IMG/VR virus record: IMGVR_UViG_3300024432_000057
Coordinates: 1 to 28,558 of that record
Strand: one strand, 5' to 3'
DNA length: 28,558 bases
From: a virus
In this document: piece by piece, positions 1,421 through 17,520 of the stretch
Numbering within the stretch: the first letter of the stretch is position 1
How the letters are laid out: every line of letters begins with the position of its first letter
Program-made: the position numbers and the translations under genes
The notes under the pieces: generated by a model
Seen by the model: the letters and a program-made list of their open reading frames with translations, nothing else
What the model was told of the DNA's origin: nothing
Database searches by the model: none

Positions 1421-1794
1421 TCAGGCAGGAGCAGATAAGGGAAGGGATGGAGGCTACGATATGCACCTTTTGTGCAATAACTGATTGCAAACTAGAAGAG
1501 GTGTGTGGGAATTGTTCAAATTTAGCTGAGGGAATTATCAAGAAGCAGGACTCTCAAGGTGTAGTGATAAAGGTGGAGAGGGAGACGGATGAAGAGCTGA
1601 GAGAAAGGCATGCACTCGAGTATCGTCAGGGTAGCACTAATATGACGTATGCTACTTGGACTATCGCGCGAGATATGTTTCCTAGAGAACTTGCAGCAGT
1701 AGAGCCATTGATAGATACCAGAATAATAGCTGAATTAGAAAGTGGGGGAACTGCCGATATGACACCACCGTCGCTGAATGAAAGGGAGGAATGA
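1417..1794 (+). CDS. Hypothetical Cys-containing protein, 125 aa
   Basis: Function not recognised. I chose the ATG at 1417 because AAGGAG lies at suitable spacing and an ATGA overlap couples it to the resolvase stop. The N-terminal third holds four cysteines in two CxxC pairs (CTFC, then CGNC) with another two between them, suggesting a small zinc-binding unit. The rest is charged, with an acidic helix rich in E and R. It ends at the start of the putative small terminase. Confidence 0.6.
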   Translation: MIRQEQIREGMEATICTFCAITDCKLEEVCGNCSNLAEGIIKKQDSQGVVIKVERETDEELRERHALEYRQGSTNMTYATWTIARDMFPRELAAVEPLIDTRIIAELESGGTADMTPPSLNEREE

Positions 1795-2441
1795 TGCCCG
1801 ACCGTAGTGCTCAAGTTAGCAAGAGGCAGGAGAGAGAGAGGGTCAAGTCGCAGGCCCTGTTCCTTGCTTATAAGAATATGGGACCTGATCGAACGTTAGA
1901 GAAGTTACACGAAATGTGCCTCTATATTGGGCTGAAACTCGCCGTTAATACCATTAAGAGATATTCTGTTAAGTATGGGTGGCAGAGGCAAATACTCGAA
2001 TTACAGTCGAAGGAAGCCGAAGAAAGGGAAAGTGACGTAGCCCGGTTAGTAGACGATATGAACAAACAGGATGCCAGCTTAGCTCAGGGAATGAAAGGCC
2101 TTGTCGCAGCCGGCATTAACTTTAAGAGGGAACATATCAAGAAGAAGGCCGGTACTGACGTTCAGGTCTTGGAGATGGAATTCAAGGATATTACCAACCT
2201 TGCCAGGACCGCACAGCAGATTGAACGATTGGCAAGGGGGGAAGCCACGTCAAGGACCGAGGTGTGGACTTCAGTGGCCTCTACGGTGGTGAGGGAATTC
2301 GTCCTGATCTTTATGGCCGTGAATGACATAGAAGATAGAGACCAGAGGAAAGACGAGTTCGTCCGGCTGGGTGACGAAATGATGATGCGGTATTACTCTG
2401 AGGCTACCAAGAGAAGCCTGGAATATCATGGTAAGGATTAA
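1794..2441 (+). CDS. Probable small terminase subunit (TerS-like)
   Basis: A 215-aa, highly charged helical protein. The N-terminal 65 residues look like a helix-turn-helix DNA-binding domain: LAYKNMG...TLEKLHEMCLYIG, then TIKRYSVKYGWQRQI, a pattern common at the front of small terminases. The middle and C-terminal parts are predicted helical, suiting oligomerisation. The small subunit recognises phage DNA and hands it to the large subunit. The large terminase lies about 5 kb downstream, an unusual separation. Two adjacent ATGs (1791, 1794) follow GGGAGGA; 1794 has the better spacing. It could instead be another phage HTH protein. Confidence 0.55.
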   Translation: MPDRSAQVSKRQERERVKSQALFLAYKNMGPDRTLEKLHEMCLYIGLKLAVNTIKRYSVKYGWQRQILELQSKEAEERESDVARLVDDMNKQDASLAQGMKGLVAAGINFKREHIKKKAGTDVQVLEMEFKDITNLARTAQQIERLARGEATSRTEVWTSVASTVVREFVLIFMAVNDIEDRDQRKDEFVRLGDEMMMRYYSEATKRSLEYHGKD

Positions 2442-3693: not shown

Positions 3694-3951
3694 ATGGCAA
3701 AGATAACTGAAACCACCGATGAGAAAACTGGTATAACAACTCTAAAGAGACGATATTCTACCACAGTATTTGCACCATTTAAGGTTGATGTTCCTTATCG
3801 ATTCGACAAAAGATTAATAGCAGAGATAAGTGAAGGTACGATTGTAGGCTTCAGTGCCTTGGCTGATTTCTGTGGTGCAACGCCTGATGACATAGAAAGA
3901 GCAATTAAGTTTCTACAAAAGGTGATTGATGTTATGAGGGAGAATAAATAA
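3694..3951 (+). CDS. Hypothetical protein, 85 aa
   Basis: Good ribosome binding site (GAGGAG) and a two-base gap to the preceding gene. The product has a basic N-terminal half with beta-like segments (TTVFAPFKVDVPYRFDK) and a C-terminal helix (DDIERAIKFLQKVIDVM). It overlaps the next ATG by one base. No family recognised. Confidence 0.6.
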   Translation: MAKITETTDEKTGITTLKRRYSTTVFAPFKVDVPYRFDKRLIAEISEGTIVGFSALADFCGATPDDIERAIKFLQKVIDVMRENK

Positions 3952-4439: not shown

Positions 4440-4455
4440 ATTGGAGGGTTTAAGG

Positions 4456-4743
4456 ATGAAATTCAGAAAGAAACCAATAGTGGTAGAGGCGGAGCAATTC
4501 CGCAAAGACAAAATACCTTACCCAGAGGGTGTCTATATCGGCAGTTCTTACTGCACTACGCAAGATGGGGGTGAGTGGTGTGAGCTACACAAGGCTTATC
4601 ACATTTACCCTATATATTGCATTAAGACGCTCGAAGGAGAGCACGTTGTCTCCCATCTAGACTGGATTATTACGGGGGTTCAAGGTGAGAAATACCCTTG
4701 TAAACCAGACATATTTGAACAGACCTATGAGCAAGTAGCCTGA
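4456..4743 (+). CDS. PGDYG-type phage protein, 95 aa
   Basis: I place the start at the ATG at 4456, eight bases after GGAGG. An in-frame TTG at 4441 lies before this site and is unlikely. The protein begins MKFRKKPIVVEAEQF, the hallmark opening of a small protein family found in many phages. In the middle it has SHLDWIITGVQGEKYPCKPDIF, which matches the conserved C-terminal block in which other members carry a PGDYG-like or GEKYPCKPDIF-like element. The biochemical role of the family is not established. Confidence 0.75.
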   Translation: MKFRKKPIVVEAEQFRKDKIPYPEGVYIGSSYCTTQDGGEWCELHKAYHIYPIYCIKTLEGEHVVSHLDWIITGVQGEKYPCKPDIFEQTYEQVA

Positions 4744-5471: not shown

Positions 5472-5966
5472 ATGAAGCAGATATTTATAATTTTAATGTA
5501 TCTAAGTGCAGTGGTAATTGCCAATTTGACTGTAGCACATTTTGGCACTATGGCAGTTCTGCCTGTGGCATTCGTTCTTATCGGGTTCGATCTAACGGCA
5601 AGGGATTACTTGCATGAGGTATGGCAAGGCAAGCTATGGTTAAGGATGTTCCTTTTAATTGGCTCTGGGTCGCTGCTATCTTGGGTCTTAAATAGAGATG
5701 CTGGGCAGGTCGCTCTCGCATCATTTCTAGCCTTTGCTGGCGCCGGCCTTGTAGACACAATTATATATAGCATATTACATAAAAGGCTCTTTCTTATCAG
5801 AGTGAATGGTAGCAATTTATTCAGCTCTTTTACCGACTCCGCTTTATTTTTAACTATAGCGTTTAACTCATTTATGCCGTTCCTAATTATGCAACAGTTT
5901 GCTGTTAAGGTGGGAGGAGGGTTCCTATGGTCGCTGGCGCTAAGTAAATTCAGAGAACGCAAATGA
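5472..5966 (+). CDS. VUT/YhhQ-family membrane transporter (probable queuosine-precursor type)
   Basis: A 164-aa integral membrane protein with four to five hydrophobic segments at about 2-21, 28-40, 57-74, 79-98 and 122-142. Family motifs are visible: ANLTVAHFG near residue 17, LIGFDLTARDYLHE at 36-49, SWVLN, then DTIIYSILHKR and RVNGSN, and DSALFLTIAF at 122-131. These match the VUT group, whose member YhhQ imports the 7-deazaguanine precursor preQ0. It lies next to a DpdA-like gene, with the stop overlapping that start, which suggests it supplies the base for DNA modification. Substrate specificity is inferred from family and context. Confidence 0.8.
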   Translation: MKQIFIILMYLSAVVIANLTVAHFGTMAVLPVAFVLIGFDLTARDYLHEVWQGKLWLRMFLLIGSGSLLSWVLNRDAGQVALASFLAFAGAGLVDTIIYSILHKRLFLIRVNGSNLFSSFTDSALFLTIAFNSFMPFLIMQQFAVKVGGGFLWSLALSKFRERK

Positions 5967-6751
5967 AAGTGTACTGGGGAATGACAGCCACTAGAAGTTA
6001 TATAAGAACTATTCCGGCGGATGAATCAGTGATGATTTCTGCAGGTAGCCTTTGGAATGATAAAAGAAAGTCGCCCGGGTTTATCGACAAACGCTACTGG
6101 ATATGGCCAGATTTCGCCTTAGACTCCGGTGGCTTTGTAGCTTTGAATAAATGGGGCGATTATCCATTTACCGCCGAAGATTATTTGAATTTAATAGACC
6201 ATATGCAACCATCGTGGGCTGCCTCTATGGACTACCCGTGTGAGCCTGATATTGCGAAAGGAACTAAATTATCTGTTAATGAAAGGATTATGGCGACAGT
6301 TGAATATGCTGTTTATTTATCGAGGCGTAACGAGAAGATAATACCTGTCTTGCAAGGCTACACACCTGATGAGTATGAGCAATGCTATAGGCTTTTGTCA
6401 TCCAAAATGAGGGTGACAAGGCTCGCTCTTGGGTCAGTCTGCAAAAGGCAATCAACCAGGGAGATAGCTGACCTGTGTTGGGAACTAACGCAATTTTTAC
6501 CAGCAGTACCAATTCATGGTTTTGGCGTTAAACTCAGAGCTCTAGCTTTCCCCGAAACGTGGGCATTGTTCTCAAGCATAGACACTAATGCTTGGGAGTT
6601 CTATCACCGGACTAAGTATTGGCCTAAAAACAGGGATTATGGGAGACGATTCACTGATGCAGAGGTATTTCGTGAATATCGTGAGAAGATCGAATCACTT
6701 GTCAACAAACCCAGGCAGTTAATGTTGAAGCCAATAGATGAAGCAGGATAA
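5963..6751 (+). CDS. dpdA: DpdA-like DNA guanine transglycosylase (7-deazaguanine insertion)
   Basis: A 262-aa member of the tRNA-guanine transglycosylase superfamily. It shows DSGGF at 54-58, the substrate-pocket motif; a MDYPCEPDI segment at 89-97; IPVLQGYTPDEY at 127-138; LALGSVCKRQ at 154-163; HGFGVK at 185-190; and SSIDTNAW at 204-211, whose Asp207 is the likely nucleophile. The CxCxxC zinc site of tRNA enzymes is absent and the protein is short, both typical of phage DpdA. These enzymes swap guanine in DNA for preQ0 or derivatives, protecting against restriction. The gene is coupled to the transporter by an ATGA overlap. No FolE, QueD, QueE or QueC gene is seen here. Confidence 0.8.
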   Translation: MKVYWGMTATRSYIRTIPADESVMISAGSLWNDKRKSPGFIDKRYWIWPDFALDSGGFVALNKWGDYPFTAEDYLNLIDHMQPSWAASMDYPCEPDIAKGTKLSVNERIMATVEYAVYLSRRNEKIIPVLQGYTPDEYEQCYRLLSSKMRVTRLALGSVCKRQSTREIADLCWELTQFLPAVPIHGFGVKLRALAFPETWALFSSIDTNAWEFYHRTKYWPKNRDYGRRFTDAEVFREYREKIESLVNKPRQLMLKPIDEAG

Positions 6752-7533: not shown

Positions 7534-8988
7534 TTGACGAGTCAACTTCTACTCCCTAGTTACGCTTACGAAGCTGAGAAGAAAAAAGATACCGACTGGC
7601 TCCTAACGCCGGCCCGTACTGCCGTTCACCTCTCCCGGGGTAAGTGGATTCGAACCCGCCATCTCGATCTCATATCAAACGAAGTCTCCAAGTTAAAAGA
7701 CCATCCCATCTTCCTTATTGTTACCTTACCTCCTAGGCACGGTAAGAGTAGTTTGATATCGCACTGGACCCCGGTGTGGTTCTTGAAAACTTGGCCTCAT
7801 AAGCGTGTTATCCTGGCTTCTTACCAGACTGACTTTGCCGCCGATTGGGGCGGTGACACCAAGAACACCATAACAGAGAATGTCTTGGAATTAGGCCTTG
7901 AACTGATGCAGGATACCAAGGCTAAACACCAGTGGAGAATCAAAGGGCACGGCGGCGGCATGACCGCCACCGGGATAGGCGGTTCTCTCACCGGTCGCGG
8001 TGGAGACCTGATTGTTATTGACGATCCCGTGAAATCCCAGAAGGAAGCCTTATCCGAGACATACCGCAGGACGACAAAGCAATGGTATCAAGCTACATTG
8101 AGGAGTCGTTTACAACCTAATGGTTCAATTATTATAATAATGACACGCTGGCACGAAGATGACCTCGTGGGTTGGCTTTTAAGTGAGACTTCTGAGGAAG
8201 TAAAATATAAAGACGATTGGAAGGTCATTAATATGCCGGCTTTCGCCGAATCAGACGACGTATTAGGTCGGAAGGAGGGACAGGTACTCTGGCCGGGTAT
8301 GTACAGTCGGGAATCCCTATTGGCGTCGAGGGAAGCGGTTGGACCTTACTGGTGGAGTGCTCAATATATGGGATCACCTAGACCGGAAGGCGGTGCGATA
8401 TTAAAAGAAGCCTGGTTTCAGTATTTTACCGATGAAGACGATCCGCTTGAAAATGACGAGGTTAAAATATTACGATGTCTGCAATTCTGGGATACCGCCT
8501 TCAAGAAAGACCAGCAAAATGACAGGTCGGCTTGTTGTACGTGGATAGAAACGAATAAGGGTTACTTCCTTCACGATGTATGGGTTGGCCGACCTGAGTT
8601 CCCCGAATTGGTAGAGATCGTAAAGGCCAAATACCGGCAATATATACCCGACCAAATACAGGTTGAAGACAAAGCCTCCGGCCAATCCCTAATCCAGCAG
8701 TTACGCCGTGATACGAGGTTACCTATTAAGGCTATTAAAGCAGTAGACGATAAGACCATCCGGGTTAATTCGATAGCCGGTATCGTAGAGGCTGGAAGGG
8801 TATTCTTACCTTCAAGAGCTCCCTGGTTATCGGAATTTCTGCACGAAGTATGCTCATTCCCTTCTGCGATGCATGACGATATTACAGACGCATTCGCCTA
8901 TGGGTTAATGGCTATGAAACCCCAGCGAGTAATTGGAGGACGCAGTTCGGTCAGCCGTGGTAAGAAACAATCTACCTGGAGGGATTAG
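7534..8988 (+). CDS. terL: Terminase large subunit (packaging ATPase/nuclease)
   Basis: A 484-aa packaging motor. The ATPase domain shows Walker A PPRHGKS at 66-72, Walker B LIVIDDP at 159-165 and the coupling motif TRWHEDD at 204-210. The C-terminal RNase H-like nuclease carries acidic residues in FWDTAF (Asp320), VEDKASG (Glu378/Asp379) and HDDITDAFAYG (Asp448, Asp449, Asp452). It translocates DNA into the prohead and cuts the concatemer. The only start that keeps the conserved N-terminus is TTG at 7534, directly after an in-frame stop and with a weak GGTG ribosome binding site. Expression may depend on coupling to the upstream mini gene. The probable small subunit lies about 5 kb upstream. 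Confidence 0.95.
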   Translation: MTSQLLLPSYAYEAEKKKDTDWLLTPARTAVHLSRGKWIRTRHLDLISNEVSKLKDHPIFLIVTLPPRHGKSSLISHWTPVWFLKTWPHKRVILASYQTDFAADWGGDTKNTITENVLELGLELMQDTKAKHQWRIKGHGGGMTATGIGGSLTGRGGDLIVIDDPVKSQKEALSETYRRTTKQWYQATLRSRLQPNGSIIIIMTRWHEDDLVGWLLSETSEEVKYKDDWKVINMPAFAESDDVLGRKEGQVLWPGMYSRESLLASREAVGPYWWSAQYMGSPRPEGGAILKEAWFQYFTDEDDPLENDEVKILRCLQFWDTAFKKDQQNDRSACCTWIETNKGYFLHDVWVGRPEFPELVEIVKAKYRQYIPDQIQVEDKASGQSLIQQLRRDTRLPIKAIKAVDDKTIRVNSIAGIVEAGRVFLPSRAPWLSEFLHEVCSFPSAMHDDITDAFAYGLMAMKPQRVIGGRSSVSRGKKQSTWRD

Positions 8989-8989
8989 A

Positions 8990-9193
8990 ATGAAACATAG
9001 ATGTTCTTTGTGTGGCAGGTCTGTAAGGAGGATTACTGAAGCTGTTGGGCTTCCACTGTCTACTGGATTTCCACCCGACAGACCTATGTTTGCAAGTACT
9101 ACACCCTATGCTCCCTTCTCGTGTTCTAATCATAAACATACACCAATGGGAGGGAATCGCGTAGAATATCAGCCTGTTAATTGGAGGGAATAG
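8990..9193 (+). CDS. Small Cys/His-rich protein, 67 aa
   Basis: Starts at the ATG at 8990, after GGAGG inside the end of the terminase gene and two bases past its stop. It begins MKHRCSLCGRSVRR and has a late FSCSNHKH segment, so one CxxC pair plus a Cys/His group could hold zinc. Pro and Thr are frequent between them. The family is not recognised. The TAG stop forms part of the -35 box of the portal promoter. Confidence 0.65.
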   Translation: MKHRCSLCGRSVRRITEAVGLPLSTGFPPDRPMFASTTPYAPFSCSNHKHTPMGGNRVEYQPVNWRE

Positions 9194-9219
9194 ACAAATC
9201 AGAAAGTGTACATTATATT
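9191..9219 (+). promoter_or_regulatory. Promoter of the portal/head operon
   Basis: TAGACA at 9191-9196 (5 of 6 to TTGACA), a 17-base spacer, then TATATT at 9214-9219 (5 of 6 to TATAAT). Transcription would start near 9226 and give a leader of about 160 bases before the portal ATG. Confidence 0.55.
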
Positions 9220-9225
9220 ATAGAT

Positions 9226-9386
9226 AAATAAGAAGAAAGCCGCTCTGCAAAGCGACTAACGTCAAGGTGTGTCTTCAGGATTCAGTTAAAAATAGGTCAC
9301 TTATGTATATAGTTACCTAAAAATAAGATACACCCTTGGCGGCGTTTTGTCAAATCCCTCGCCTGTTAAGGGTGGGGGATTGTTTT
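9226..9386 (+). ncRNA. Structured 5' leader of the portal gene with RBS-sequestering hairpin
   Basis: This untranslated leader has an ordered set of pairings. A basal stem pairs 9239-9243 with 9339-9343 and competes with a small hairpin, 9241-9244 with 9251-9254. A long stem pairs 9263-9275 with 9325-9338 (13 pairs, one bulged C) and encloses a hairpin, 9293-9300 with 9312-9319. Downstream, 9353-9364 pairs with 9370-9381 around a GTTAA loop; its 3' arm is the GGGTGGGGGA ribosome binding site of the portal gene, followed by GTTTT. The layout of an upstream structured domain followed by an RBS-covering hairpin is like that of translational riboswitches or protein-bound leaders. The ligand, if any, is unknown. 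Confidence 0.6.
9353..9381 (+). promoter_or_regulatory. Hairpin covering the portal ribosome binding site
   Basis: A 12-pair stem (three G-U) with a five-base loop ends six bases before the portal ATG and hides its G-rich ribosome binding site. The trailing GTTTT means it could also act as a weak terminator. Confidence 0.6.
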
Positions 9387-10769
9387 ATGAGCGACAAAAA
9401 GCGAAGTAAGCGCAACCAGTACTTTTCAAGGCGCGAACAATCATCTCAAACCGAAGGTGGTTACCTCACCCCGCAAGAGCGAAACCCCAACAAACTCTAT
9501 CAGAGAAAGGATCAAGACCCCCTCGGTGTGCGTGGGCTCCGGCACGCGGCAGGCAGAATTCAGGAAGAGTGGAAGAGAGAGTTTCAAACCTGGGATCGGG
9601 CTGTCAAAGTCTATCTCGAAATGAGAGACGACGTTATAGTCGGGACTTTATTGGATGCAATCAAACTCCCCCTTCTGGCAGCCACTTTCTCGGTGAATCC
9701 GGCAGAGGGTAATACTGCCGGTGACCAGGCTGCCGCCGATTGGTTGTATGACACCATGCACCGCATGAATAAGCAGACCTGGAAGTCTTATGTCTCGGAT
9801 TGCCTTGACGCTCTTGACTTTGGATGGGCGGTTAGTGAAATCGTTCTAGAGAAGCGGGCCGATGGTCGGATGTGGCTGAGGAATATCGACCCCAGGGGTC
9901 AAGAGACTCTACAGAGGTGGATATTCGATGAAGAGCACTCAGACGAAGTAGCCGCAATGGTGCAGCGTGACCCTAATACTAGAAAGGATATCCCGATTCC
10001 TTTATCAAGGTGCGTTCACGTTACGTTTAGAGGTAGAAAGGGAAATCCAGAGGGTAGGTCATTACTATATTCGCTCCATAGGCCGTGGAGGTTCTGTAAG
10101 GACTTTGAGAACTTTGAGGGGATAGGCGTAGAGCGTGACGTAGGGGGAATGCCGGTAGCCAAGTTGCCTGAGACTGGAGATATTTCCGCTGCTGATATAG
10201 CCGCTTTGGATGAAGCCATGGCAGGTATGAGGCGGGATGAGAATGAATATCTACGTTTACCCGGCGGTGTAACCATTGAACCTTATGGATCGGGTAATAA
10301 GATGTACGACGTCGGAGCTATTATTGAAAGGAAGCAGAAGGAAATCTTAACCCGTATGTTCGCACAGTTCCTTAAATTAGGTATGGATAATGTCGGCACT
10401 CAGGCTCTAGTCCAGGGTTCGCAGGCTTTCTTTAATCTGGGTCTGGGTTCGGTTCAGGAACAACTAAAGGAGGCGTGGAACCTGCAACTGGTACCTTATC
10501 TATTCCAATGGAATCACTTCCCCGGTATGACCGACTATCCTGAGATAGCGTGGGAGGCACCCGGTGAACTGAAGGTCGCCGAGCTGCTAACATCTCTCAA
10601 TACGGCAGTCGGAGCTAAGGTATTCACACCCACCGATGTTGATGAAGACCATGTAAGAAAACTACTGGACTGGCCAGAGCTTCCTGAAGATGAACGAGGT
10701 CAACCCCGAGATGTTGAGCAACCACCGATGGCCGGTATATTTAGCCCGGTGAGGAGGGTTATCGAATGA
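9387..10769 (+). CDS. Phage portal protein (DUF935/Mu gp29-like)
   Basis: A 460-aa portal, the dodecameric ring through which DNA enters and leaves the head. I place the start at the ATG at 9387 behind GGGTGGGGGA; the frame is open to a TTG at 9336, but that lies in the structured leader. The sequence has DVIVGTLLDAIKLPLL near the N-terminus, a conserved SLHRPWRFCKDFENFEGIGVERD block split by its usual hinge, then AGLPV-like GGMPVAKLP and a C-terminal clip and crown region. These match the DUF935 portal group of Mu-like phages. The stop overlaps the next ATG. The MuF partner follows two small ORFs and a zinc-ribbon gene. Confidence 0.9.
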   Translation: MSDKKRSKRNQYFSRREQSSQTEGGYLTPQERNPNKLYQRKDQDPLGVRGLRHAAGRIQEEWKREFQTWDRAVKVYLEMRDDVIVGTLLDAIKLPLLAATFSVNPAEGNTAGDQAAADWLYDTMHRMNKQTWKSYVSDCLDALDFGWAVSEIVLEKRADGRMWLRNIDPRGQETLQRWIFDEEHSDEVAAMVQRDPNTRKDIPIPLSRCVHVTFRGRKGNPEGRSLLYSLHRPWRFCKDFENFEGIGVERDVGGMPVAKLPETGDISAADIAALDEAMAGMRRDENEYLRLPGGVTIEPYGSGNKMYDVGAIIERKQKEILTRMFAQFLKLGMDNVGTQALVQGSQAFFNLGLGSVQEQLKEAWNLQLVPYLFQWNHFPGMTDYPEIAWEAPGELKVAELLTSLNTAVGAKVFTPTDVDEDHVRKLLDWPELPEDERGQPRDVEQPPMAGIFSPVRRVIE

Positions 10770-15566: not shown

Positions 15567-16520
15567 ATGCCTGATCCGACTAGAGCACAGATACACATCA
15601 ATAGTCCATTAACCGATATCGCTATTGCGTATGGGAATGAGGACTATATCGCAAACCAGGTATTCCCCTCCGTCCCGGTTGATAAACAATCGGACTACTA
15701 CTTTGTCTGGACTAAAGGCTTCTGGCTGAGAAATGCGGTCCAGCGACGTGCTCCTGGCGATACCTATCCGGAAGGAAGGATAGAAGTCTCCAGCACGACC
15801 TATATGTGCAAAGAGTTCGCCTTGGGATATGGTATTCCTGACGAGGATGTTCAGAATCAGGATACTGCGATACAACTGGAAATCACCGGCGCCGAATGGT
15901 TGGCTGACCAGTTCCAGCTTAACAGGGAAATCCAGATTGCTGCTGATATCTTTACTACAAACGTCTGGGCTAACGATGTAACCGGTGGTACCGACTTCAC
16001 GGTATGGAGTGATTACGATGACTCCAATCCTATGACCGATTTGATTACCGGTATGCAGACCATCCAGCCATCTACGGGCAAGAAGGCTAATACCCTGGTT
16101 ATAGGCAGGCAGGTATTCGATCAGCTTGCTGAACATCCAATGTTACTGGATAAGTTCAAGTACACCGGGGCCGGTATTCTCAACAACGATGAAGTGCGCC
16201 GGGCTCTGCGCGTAGACCGTCTCATAGTAGGCGAAGCGGTTTATGAGTCCACTATGGAAGGCGACTCCACACCTACCCGGTCATATATCTGGGGTAAACA
16301 CGCACTTCTGTGCCATGTTCCTCCGTCACCGGGTCTAAGGGTTGCCGCTTGCGGTTATACCTTTGAGTGGAAACTCCCGGGTGCGGGTGGAGCAACGGTG
16401 GCTATCGGGAATAGCCGTGAAGACTGGCGAGATCGTGACTTCCTGAAAGGGAAACACGCCTTTGACGACAAGGTTACTGCAACAGACCTCGGCTACTTCT
16501 TCAGCGGTGCAGTGGCGTAG
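15567..16520 (+). CDS. Major capsid protein
   Basis: A 317-aa protein directly after the decoration gene, with AAAGGAGG upstream. It begins with a region that should contact neighbours (PTRAQIHINSPLTDIAIAY), then has SVPVDKQSDYYFVW and AEWLADQFQLNREIQIAADI, a long helix fitting the spine of the HK97 fold. Later come ANTLVIGRQVFDQLAEHP and VDRLIVGEAVYE, typical of Mu-like and related capsids. Size and order in the operon fit the capsid. The N-terminus shows no obvious scaffold domain, in keeping with the separate scaffold gene. Confidence 0.85.
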   Translation: MPDPTRAQIHINSPLTDIAIAYGNEDYIANQVFPSVPVDKQSDYYFVWTKGFWLRNAVQRRAPGDTYPEGRIEVSSTTYMCKEFALGYGIPDEDVQNQDTAIQLEITGAEWLADQFQLNREIQIAADIFTTNVWANDVTGGTDFTVWSDYDDSNPMTDLITGMQTIQPSTGKKANTLVIGRQVFDQLAEHPMLLDKFKYTGAGILNNDEVRRALRVDRLIVGEAVYESTMEGDSTPTRSYIWGKHALLCHVPPSPGLRVAACGYTFEWKLPGAGGATVAIGNSREDWRDRDFLKGKHAFDDKVTATDLGYFFSGAVA

Positions 16521-16521
16521 A

Positions 16522-16537
16522 GCGCCTGAGAAGGCGC
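16522..16537 (+). promoter_or_regulatory. Short GC-rich hairpin after the capsid gene
   Basis: Six perfect pairs (GCGCCT with AGGCGC) enclose a GAGA tetraloop two bases after the capsid stop. No T-run follows, so it is more likely an mRNA stability or processing element than a terminator, which would suit a highly expressed capsid message. Confidence 0.5.
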
Positions 16538-16569
16538 AGAGTAGAAACTAAATAAATGGAGGTTTTGAA

Positions 16570-17520
16570 ATGCCACCTACAATAAGATATAGAGGACGCC
16601 GGGTCTTCGACTTCCTTGTAGCTAAGAGGCTGCAGGGAAATATCGGTAGCTTTGGAAACGGCGATACATTCTATGTTGACGGAATCAGCGGAAGTGACGG
16701 GGCTGCCAATGGAGGCAACCTGCCCACCTCTCCGCTTCTCACTATTGATCGTGCCTTGGAGCTGGCTACTACCGAACATGACGATTACATATTCGTCATG
16801 GATTGCTGGAGTTCAGGGGAACCGATAGAGGTTGATAAATCCTTAGTCCATATCATCGCCTTGAATAATCCGCAAGCTCCGTGGGCAGCTTTGAATGCCG
16901 GGGCAGATACAGCCATCTTTACAGCCAGTTCCGCTGGCAATTCCTCGGAGATTTCAGGCTTTAATATCGGTGGGGGTAATAGTCATGCCGGTATTGAGAC
17001 TACTAACTGCATCGGTCTGTGGATTCACCACAATGCCTTCGGCCATCCGTTCTCTTCGGATACTCCTCTATACGGGATCTGGAATGGAGTTGCCGGTAAC
17101 CCAGCTTACTGCCTGATTGAGGATAACCGCTTCTACGGTGATGGGAAGTCCGATGGTGATATTACCAGTAATGGTATCTACATACACGGCAGCCTCTATA
17201 CGATGGTAAACGGGATAATCCGCAGAAACGTGTTCTTGGGATTGGTGGGAGCCACAAATGCCGGTGCTATCTATCTCTCAGCAGTGCAGGGTGCGGAAGT
17301 CTCAGATAATATCTTCCACTTCACCGATGCCGCCAACGGAGATGCGATTAACCTTGGATCTACGACCAGACATTGTATCATCGAAGGAAACAGGGCATCT
17401 CATGGGATGCTGAATGCCGGCAACACATATAATCCCTACCGAGACCTGGCAACTAATACGCTTAACGGTTGGGGCTTGAACTATCGAAATAACTCGGTCA
17501 TGGAACCGGTTGGGGTATAA
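16570..17520 (+). CDS. Right-handed beta-helix virion protein A, 316 aa
   Basis: A clear pectate-lyase-like parallel beta-helix. An N-terminal cap has FYVDGISGSDGAANGG, then LLTIDRALELA (the usual start of such repeats). The body has short rungs such as GLWIHHNAFGH, CLIEDNRFYG, GIIRRNVFLG, AEVSDNIFHF and HCIIEGNRAS. It is paralogous to the next gene. The position right after the capsid gene suggests it may be attached to the head as a decoration or fibre, though a tailspike-type role is also possible. No catalytic residues can be named. The ribosome binding site is TGGAGG. Confidence 0.8.
   Translation: MPPTIRYRGRRVFDFLVAKRLQGNIGSFGNGDTFYVDGISGSDGAANGGNLPTSPLLTIDRALELATTEHDDYIFVMDCWSSGEPIEVDKSLVHIIALNNPQAPWAALNAGADTAIFTASSAGNSSEISGFNIGGGNSHAGIETTNCIGLWIHHNAFGHPFSSDTPLYGIWNGVAGNPAYCLIEDNRFYGDGKSDGDITSNGIYIHGSLYTMVNGIIRRNVFLGLVGATNAGAIYLSAVQGAEVSDNIFHFTDAANGDAINLGSTTRHCIIEGNRASHGMLNAGNTYNPYRDLATNTLNGWGLNYRNNSVMEPVGV

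Follow-up and report, generated by a model that had tools for sequence, protein, structure and literature searches.

A lineage-specific structured leader upstream of a phage portal gene: a possible attenuator-type RNA switch

The locus and the portal promoter

The DNA analysed here, which we call the window, is the whole of a 28.6 kb virus record. Its tailed-phage genes lie on the plus strand and include, besides those listed in Table 1, genes for a head protease and the major capsid protein. A gap of 193 nt separates a 67-aa ORF, for which neither Pfam nor PHROGs gave a match, from the portal gene, and the leader described below is located in this gap. A related phage (L002) carries a different small Cys-rich ORF in the corresponding place, between terminase and portal promoter. 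Elsewhere in the window, a DpdA-like gene of the queuine tRNA-ribosyltransferase family (5963-6751) suggests 7-deazaguanine DNA modification.

The first-pass annotation had placed a promoter just upstream of the leader, and the site (P+) is found at the position it gave. Portal searches in IMG/VR returned about 50 relatives with 23-70% identity, and the upstream DNA was readable in most of them; portal alignments run twice against genome contigs turned up no relative, and neither did a terminase query in IMG/VR. Of 25 tabulated relatives, 24 carry a sigma70-like promoter with the end of its -10 lying 19-43 nt 5' of the portal ATG, the exception being L106, whose best promoter site is weak and lies 91 nt from the portal ATG. 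The close relatives L002-L005 and L091 have T[AG]GACA-17-TANNNT in common, the start region AGATAAA is common to the window, L002 and L003, and the Shine-Dalgarno sequence (SD) of the relatives, AAGGGGG or similar, sits in the same place as that of the window. Because the same promoter precedes the portal gene in relatives, P+ is very probably real and very probably drives the portal gene. The comparison also reveals a conserved promoter before portal across a large family of uncultured phages.

Distant relatives (L093-L104, L109-L113 and L122) share a further feature, a near-perfect palindrome, GTGTCAACTTGACAC, that overlies the -35 of the portal promoter and in some of them sits within a longer inverted repeat, such as CCATAGTGTCAACTTGACACAATGG in L101. 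This palindrome is probably an operator through which a dimeric regulator acts on the head operon. In L121, a perfect inverted repeat (GGTAGTGTATCA...TGATACACTACC, at about 3790-3880) lies just 5' of the portal promoter.

Table 1. Genes, promoters and RNA elements at and around the portal leader (positions in the window).
Feature	Position	Strand	Remarks
Terminase small subunit-like protein	1791-2441	+	
Large terminase	7534-8988	+	
67-aa Cys-containing ORF	8990-9193	+	
Portal/head-operon promoter P+	9191-9219	+	TAGACA-17-TATATT; expected start ~9226
Structured leader	9226-9386	+	~140 nt longer than in relatives
Predicted antisense RNA, ~85 nt	9232-9318	-	Putative; limits given by P- and by the terminator-like hairpin on the minus strand
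Terminator-like hairpin of the antisense RNA	9238-9257	-	AGTCGCTTTGCAGAGCGGCT, then TTCTTCTT; U tract weak, termination score weak (-12)
CGCUC	9241-9245	+	Predicted pairing with GAGCG (9389-9393) over the start codon, closing the whole fold
Basal stem, 5' arm	9247-9256	+	Pairs with 9342-9350; competes with hairpin 9238-9257
Segment 1, 5' arm of long stem	9260-9275	+	CGUCAAGGUGUGUCUU
Inner hairpin in long-stem loop	9293-9319	+	UAGGU...ACCUA
Segment 2	9325-9344	+	9325-9341 is the long-stem 3' arm with segment 1; or 9331-9344 pairs with 9360-9374
Antisense promoter P-	9325-9358	-	GGGATTTGACAAAACG-N12-TATCTT; -35 at 9353-9348, -10 at 9330-9325
Segment 3, 5' arm of SD-sequestering terminator-like hairpin	9353-9364	+	
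Segment 4, 3' arm of SD hairpin	9370-9381	+	Holds SD GGGGGA (9374-9379), then GUUUU
Portal gene, putatively controlled by the leader	9387-10769	+	ATG at 9387; Portal_Mu 3e-34, phrog_113 9e-65

The extra leader and its predicted folds

In the window, P+ and the portal ATG are 167 nt apart, and the roughly 140 nt between promoter and SD are absent from every relative examined. The first-pass annotation had recognised no known RNA class here, and in an Rfam search no family matched at the gathering score or at E values up to 10, the best E being 3.6. No homologue of the leader was found in phage records. Exact leader patterns searched in IMG/VR gave 84 matches for a 14-mer, five for a 16-mer and none for an 18-mer; local blastn that included the 14-mer matches was unconvincing (best E 0.009), and local alignment of the 16-mer matches stayed at chance level. 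A homologous leader in L106 was considered and rejected, as convincing sharing is limited to the promoter motif and the SD of L106 is not closed. The leader is thus known from one genome and appears to be lineage-specific.

The predicted fold of 9220-9400 has an energy of -57.7 kcal/mol (z -4.96), as good as which none of 200 shuffles came, and when the whole window was scanned in frames of 165 nt, 9231-9395 ranked first of 713 on the plus strand (z -6.08). The minus strand at the leader is not unusually folded in the same scan. Strong folding is confined to the plus strand because some pairs of the long, basal and SD helices are G-U pairs, available on this strand only, with 16, 9 and 12 pairs, respectively, against 14, 7 and 9 on the minus strand; owing to these G-U pairs, the long stem (segments 1:2), the basal stem, the SD hairpin (3:4) and the alternative helix described below (2:3) are complete on the plus strand only. 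Two other strong plus-strand folds stand out in the window: the second strongest, at 16481-16685 (z about -5), runs from just 3' of the major capsid gene into the next ORF, and the third, at 4481-4685 (z -4.8), lies within ORF 4441-4743 or close to its start.

The architecture sketched by the first-pass annotation reappears in the predicted fold. The long stem is present, although with 16 pairs and a bulge instead of the 13 pairs described; the inner hairpin is found in its loop, the basal stem does compete with a small hairpin, and a 12-pair hairpin covers the portal ribosome binding site, with the SD inside its 3' arm. Three features described here go beyond that annotation: an alternative helix, a promoter on the minus strand and the absence of the leader from relatives. 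By default, helices 1:2 and 3:4 form with predicted probabilities of about 1. The SD hairpin is worth -18.6 kcal/mol, and the SD is unpaired with a probability of 0.02, compared with 0.19-0.75 in relatives; opening it would cost 21.1 kcal/mol, compared with 0.6-14.4. Among the phages compared, the SD is thus predicted to be closed in this phage only. Of the terminator-like sites in the window, this hairpin is also the strongest by stem length, with a weak U tract and sense-strand terminator scores of 8.8, -17 or -18 depending on how the stem is parsed. In these models sequestration of the SD is clear, and a terminator role of 9353-9386 is borderline.

A second pairing is available to the same RNA. 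Helix 2:3, in which CACCCUUGGCGGCG (9331-9344) pairs with CGCC and GUUAAGGGUG (9360-9374), has 14 predicted pairs and an energy of -21.6 kcal/mol, compared with -18.6 for the SD hairpin. It takes bases from each arm of the SD hairpin, so that the two are mutually exclusive, leaves GGGGA of the SD free, and also competes with the long stem. Such pairing is unlikely to have arisen by chance, as judged from shuffles of segment 2 (P 0.0035) and from 34-mers genome-wide, about 1% of which do as well. An expression platform such as a ligand riboswitch has, with mutually exclusive helices that control an SD or a terminator, is predicted here; the helices suggest an attenuator-like logic of two states, closed with 1:2 and 3:4 and open with 2:3.

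The balance between the two states depends on the 5' part of the leader. When 9230-9318 was blocked, a range chosen from the limits of the antisense promoter P- and independent of the fold, the opening of the SD in an RNA ending at 9386 rose from 0.001 to 0.61. This rise was matched in none of 300 sequences in which 9226-9352 was shuffled and the SD hairpin kept, and in none of 400 in which only 9319-9352 was shuffled. With the 5' part blocked, helix 2:3 reaches about 0.5-1.0 for 3' ends at 9376-9379 or 9386-9395, and the SD hairpin is favoured again for 3' ends at 9382 or 9400-9430; once coding sequence is included (3' ends 9400-9430), the probability of 2:3 falls from 0.76 to 0.21 and then to 0.01. 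Blocking segment 1 alone (9260-9275) gives hardly any opening once the SD hairpin is complete. Opening would therefore rest on kinetics: helix 2:3 would have to form first, while the RNA is being made and most of its 5' part is occupied.

A probable antisense promoter within the leader

The leader also contains a promoter-like site on the opposite strand, P-, which points left while all identified genes of the window point right. Its score is reached in 0.9% of leader shuffles (P = 0.009). P- is one mismatch away from GGGACTTGACAAAACG, a sequence present at L004:5819 and L106:3738 and matched within two mismatches in none of 100 whole-window shuffles. In close relatives, promoter motifs of this class occur before portal and before a second gene, and an IMG/VR scan that required a -10 at spacer 17 beside the motif returned nine contigs; in most of these a gene begins just downstream, and several come from phages with no visible relation. 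P- therefore very probably belongs to a real promoter class, as judged from these motif matches. In L106, the same 16-mer stands without a -10 at the right spacing, so that the motif may have a role beyond that of a promoter. Antisense promoters of comparable quality near portal are almost absent in relatives (L113 scores 11, L170 scores 10). The L113 site, TTGACA-18-TATTAT on the minus strand about 70 nt 5' of the portal ATG, is the sole one in a relative to score above that of the window.

Related motif copies of the form GGGACT[TAG]GACAAAACG occur at L002:1494 and 4796, L003:1688, L004:3430 and 5819, and L106:3738, where they precede portal and a second gene downstream. Several contain an inverted repeat of the type GACAAAACG...CGTTTGTC in the spacer, and the copies are possibly sites of a shared regulator. 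P- may have arisen by inverted duplication of P+: the alignment of the two beats shuffles, but it is gapped and includes letters that promoters share.

An RNA from P- would start near 9318, form AGGUAAC...GUGACCU, and could end in AGUCGCUUUGCAGAGCGGCU-UUCUUCUU (9257-9230), where the hairpin at 9238-9257 has eight of eight pairs on the minus strand and six on the plus strand. The predicted RNA is not unusually folded (z -0.8). It would be complementary to segment 1 and the loop and would miss segment 2, because P- itself overlaps segment 2.

Models for control of the head operon

Several known systems offer close comparisons. In the plasmid antisense attenuators pT181 and pIP501, a long leader likewise holds a convergent antisense promoter, leader segments pair in alternative ways, and a terminator-like hairpin that holds the SD lies just before the start codon (PMC5703833, PMC5435934). 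The pT181 antisense RNA (RNAI), at 87 nt, is close in size to the ~85 nt predicted here (PMC5703833, PMC5435934), and the rep leader of pSK41 pairs an ~83-nt RNAI with an SD-sequestering stem-loop (PMC5703833). Two marks of an antisense attenuator appear in the window: from the letters alone, an opposite-strand promoter inside the leader, and directly before the start codon a hairpin with clear SD sequestration and a borderline terminator score. By analogy, the leader would work most like the attenuators of pT181, pIP501 and pSK41. The plasmid systems control rep, whereas here the gene is a phage portal, and there is no sequence relation. They also differ in sign. In pT181 and pIP501 the hairpin is prevented until antisense RNA binds, whereas the hairpin in the window forms by default, and covering its antisense-complementary part favours the competing helix; a defining feature of pT181, a pre-emptor that keeps the hairpin from forming until antisense RNA binds, was not found here, as the competitor wins only with the 5' part blocked. 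In pSK41, antisense binding induces sequestration (PMC5703833), the opposite of the sign predicted here.

Among phages, PAK_P3 (KC862299) has an antisense RNA where terminase and portal meet, and its promoter lies close to the start of portal. Its early antisense RNAs lie over structural genes, and a negative role has been proposed for them (PMC4933390); those at the terminase-portal junction extend over hundreds of nt and run across genes, and no dedicated folded leader was shown for them (PMC4933390; KC862299). The rnk leader (RF01771) gave the best Rfam score and has a similar CCCUCGCC hairpin before the start codon, but membership was rejected at 15.5 bits against a gathering cut-off of 50 (E 3.6). 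Leader-peptide attenuation was likewise set aside, as no small ORF with a good SD crosses segment 1: a GTG at 9267 starts inside it without an SD, and MYIVT at 9303 lies beyond it. An in-frame portal start at TTG 9336 has no SD, and the N-termini of relatives favour ATG 9387.

We tentatively favour, at somewhat short of an even chance, the reading that the leader is a lineage-specific RNA switch of the attenuator type, placed at the start of the portal/capsid operon and run by an antisense RNA from P-. In this model, the long stem 1:2 of a transcript from P+ would fold first, and 3:4 would then hide the portal SD; as 3:4 also resembles an intrinsic terminator, the gene would be closed by default, as folding predicts. 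If segment 1 were held during transcription, segment 2 would be free to pair with 9360-9374, and this helix, close in energy to its competitor, would block 3:4 and expose most of the SD. The likeliest holder of segment 1 would be the antisense RNA, provided that P- is used and its RNA does pair there. Antisense RNA would then open the gene, by exposing the SD, by preventing termination, or both. The sign of this effect is the least certain step, since convergent transcription or cleavage of the duplex (RNase III) could make the antisense RNA a repressor. The more specific version, in which a default-closed attenuator on the head operon is opened by a self-encoded cis-antisense RNA activator that takes segment 1 and lets segment 2 unlock the portal SD, we regard as rather doubtful.

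Translational control by the leader, as the first-pass annotation proposed, or control of the attenuator type is well supported by the conserved promoter, the SD closed only here and the competing helix with its two-state logic. The annotation's term 'riboswitch-like', taken as a ligand aptamer, found no support, with no Rfam match, no homologue in the viral contigs scanned and an element absent from relatives. The same switch could nonetheless work with P- incidental if a phage protein, a host protein or a small ligand, the last making it a true riboswitch, occupied segment 1 or the long-stem domain. The two-state logic needs no antisense RNA, and the complex 5' domain with its three-way closing helix over the start codon would suit such a binder. 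This is unlikely in our view: neither an Rfam class nor a homologue in the contigs scanned was found, and no conserved, covarying aptamer core emerged, the relatives and pattern scans having given no homologous leader. The leader is lineage-specific, which most ligand riboswitches are not. P-, moreover, is a strong motif match placed exactly so that its RNA can cover segment 1, and the presence of an antisense promoter inside the leader speaks for control by RNA instead of by a ligand aptamer.

We consider it quite unlikely that P- serves to repress the head operon, by antisense RNA or by convergent transcription, with the SD hairpin simply keeping expression low. P+ and P- do converge from about 100 bp apart, in PAK_P3 antisense RNAs arise early over the structural region, with one of them annotated across the junction of terminase and portal, and the 83-87 nt antisense RNAs of pT181 and pSK41 act against leaders with an SD/terminator hairpin; yet the pT181 hairpin is prevented by default where this one is formed, and blocking the antisense-covered part weakens the SD hairpin instead of helping it. 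The strong fixed fold, with 1:2 and 3:4 both near certainty, and the stem length of the SD hairpin as a terminator-like site would also suit a structure that does not switch, be it a fixed damper, an RNase-processing or mRNA-stabilising element, or a stand-alone small RNA from P+ ending at 9381-9386. Against this, which we hold to be distinctly unlikely, stand the competing helix, not expected by chance, and the direct service of the same promoter to portal in relatives, which makes a complete stop improbable. Recently inserted DNA that folds but plays no role in portal expression would account for the absence of the leader from all relatives examined. It is very unlikely given the top-ranked plus-strand fold, the strand-specific G-U pairs, the SD within the structure and the promoter motif.

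The timing of phage late operons is usually credited to promoters and protein factors, and the opening of a gene by a natural antisense RNA that pairs with its leader in cis appears rare. If the favoured reading is true, capsid gene expression in this phage would be tied to a timed small RNA, and a leader that locks the portal gene, together with the tiny antisense RNA that works it, would form a compact, RNA-only timer of capsid assembly.
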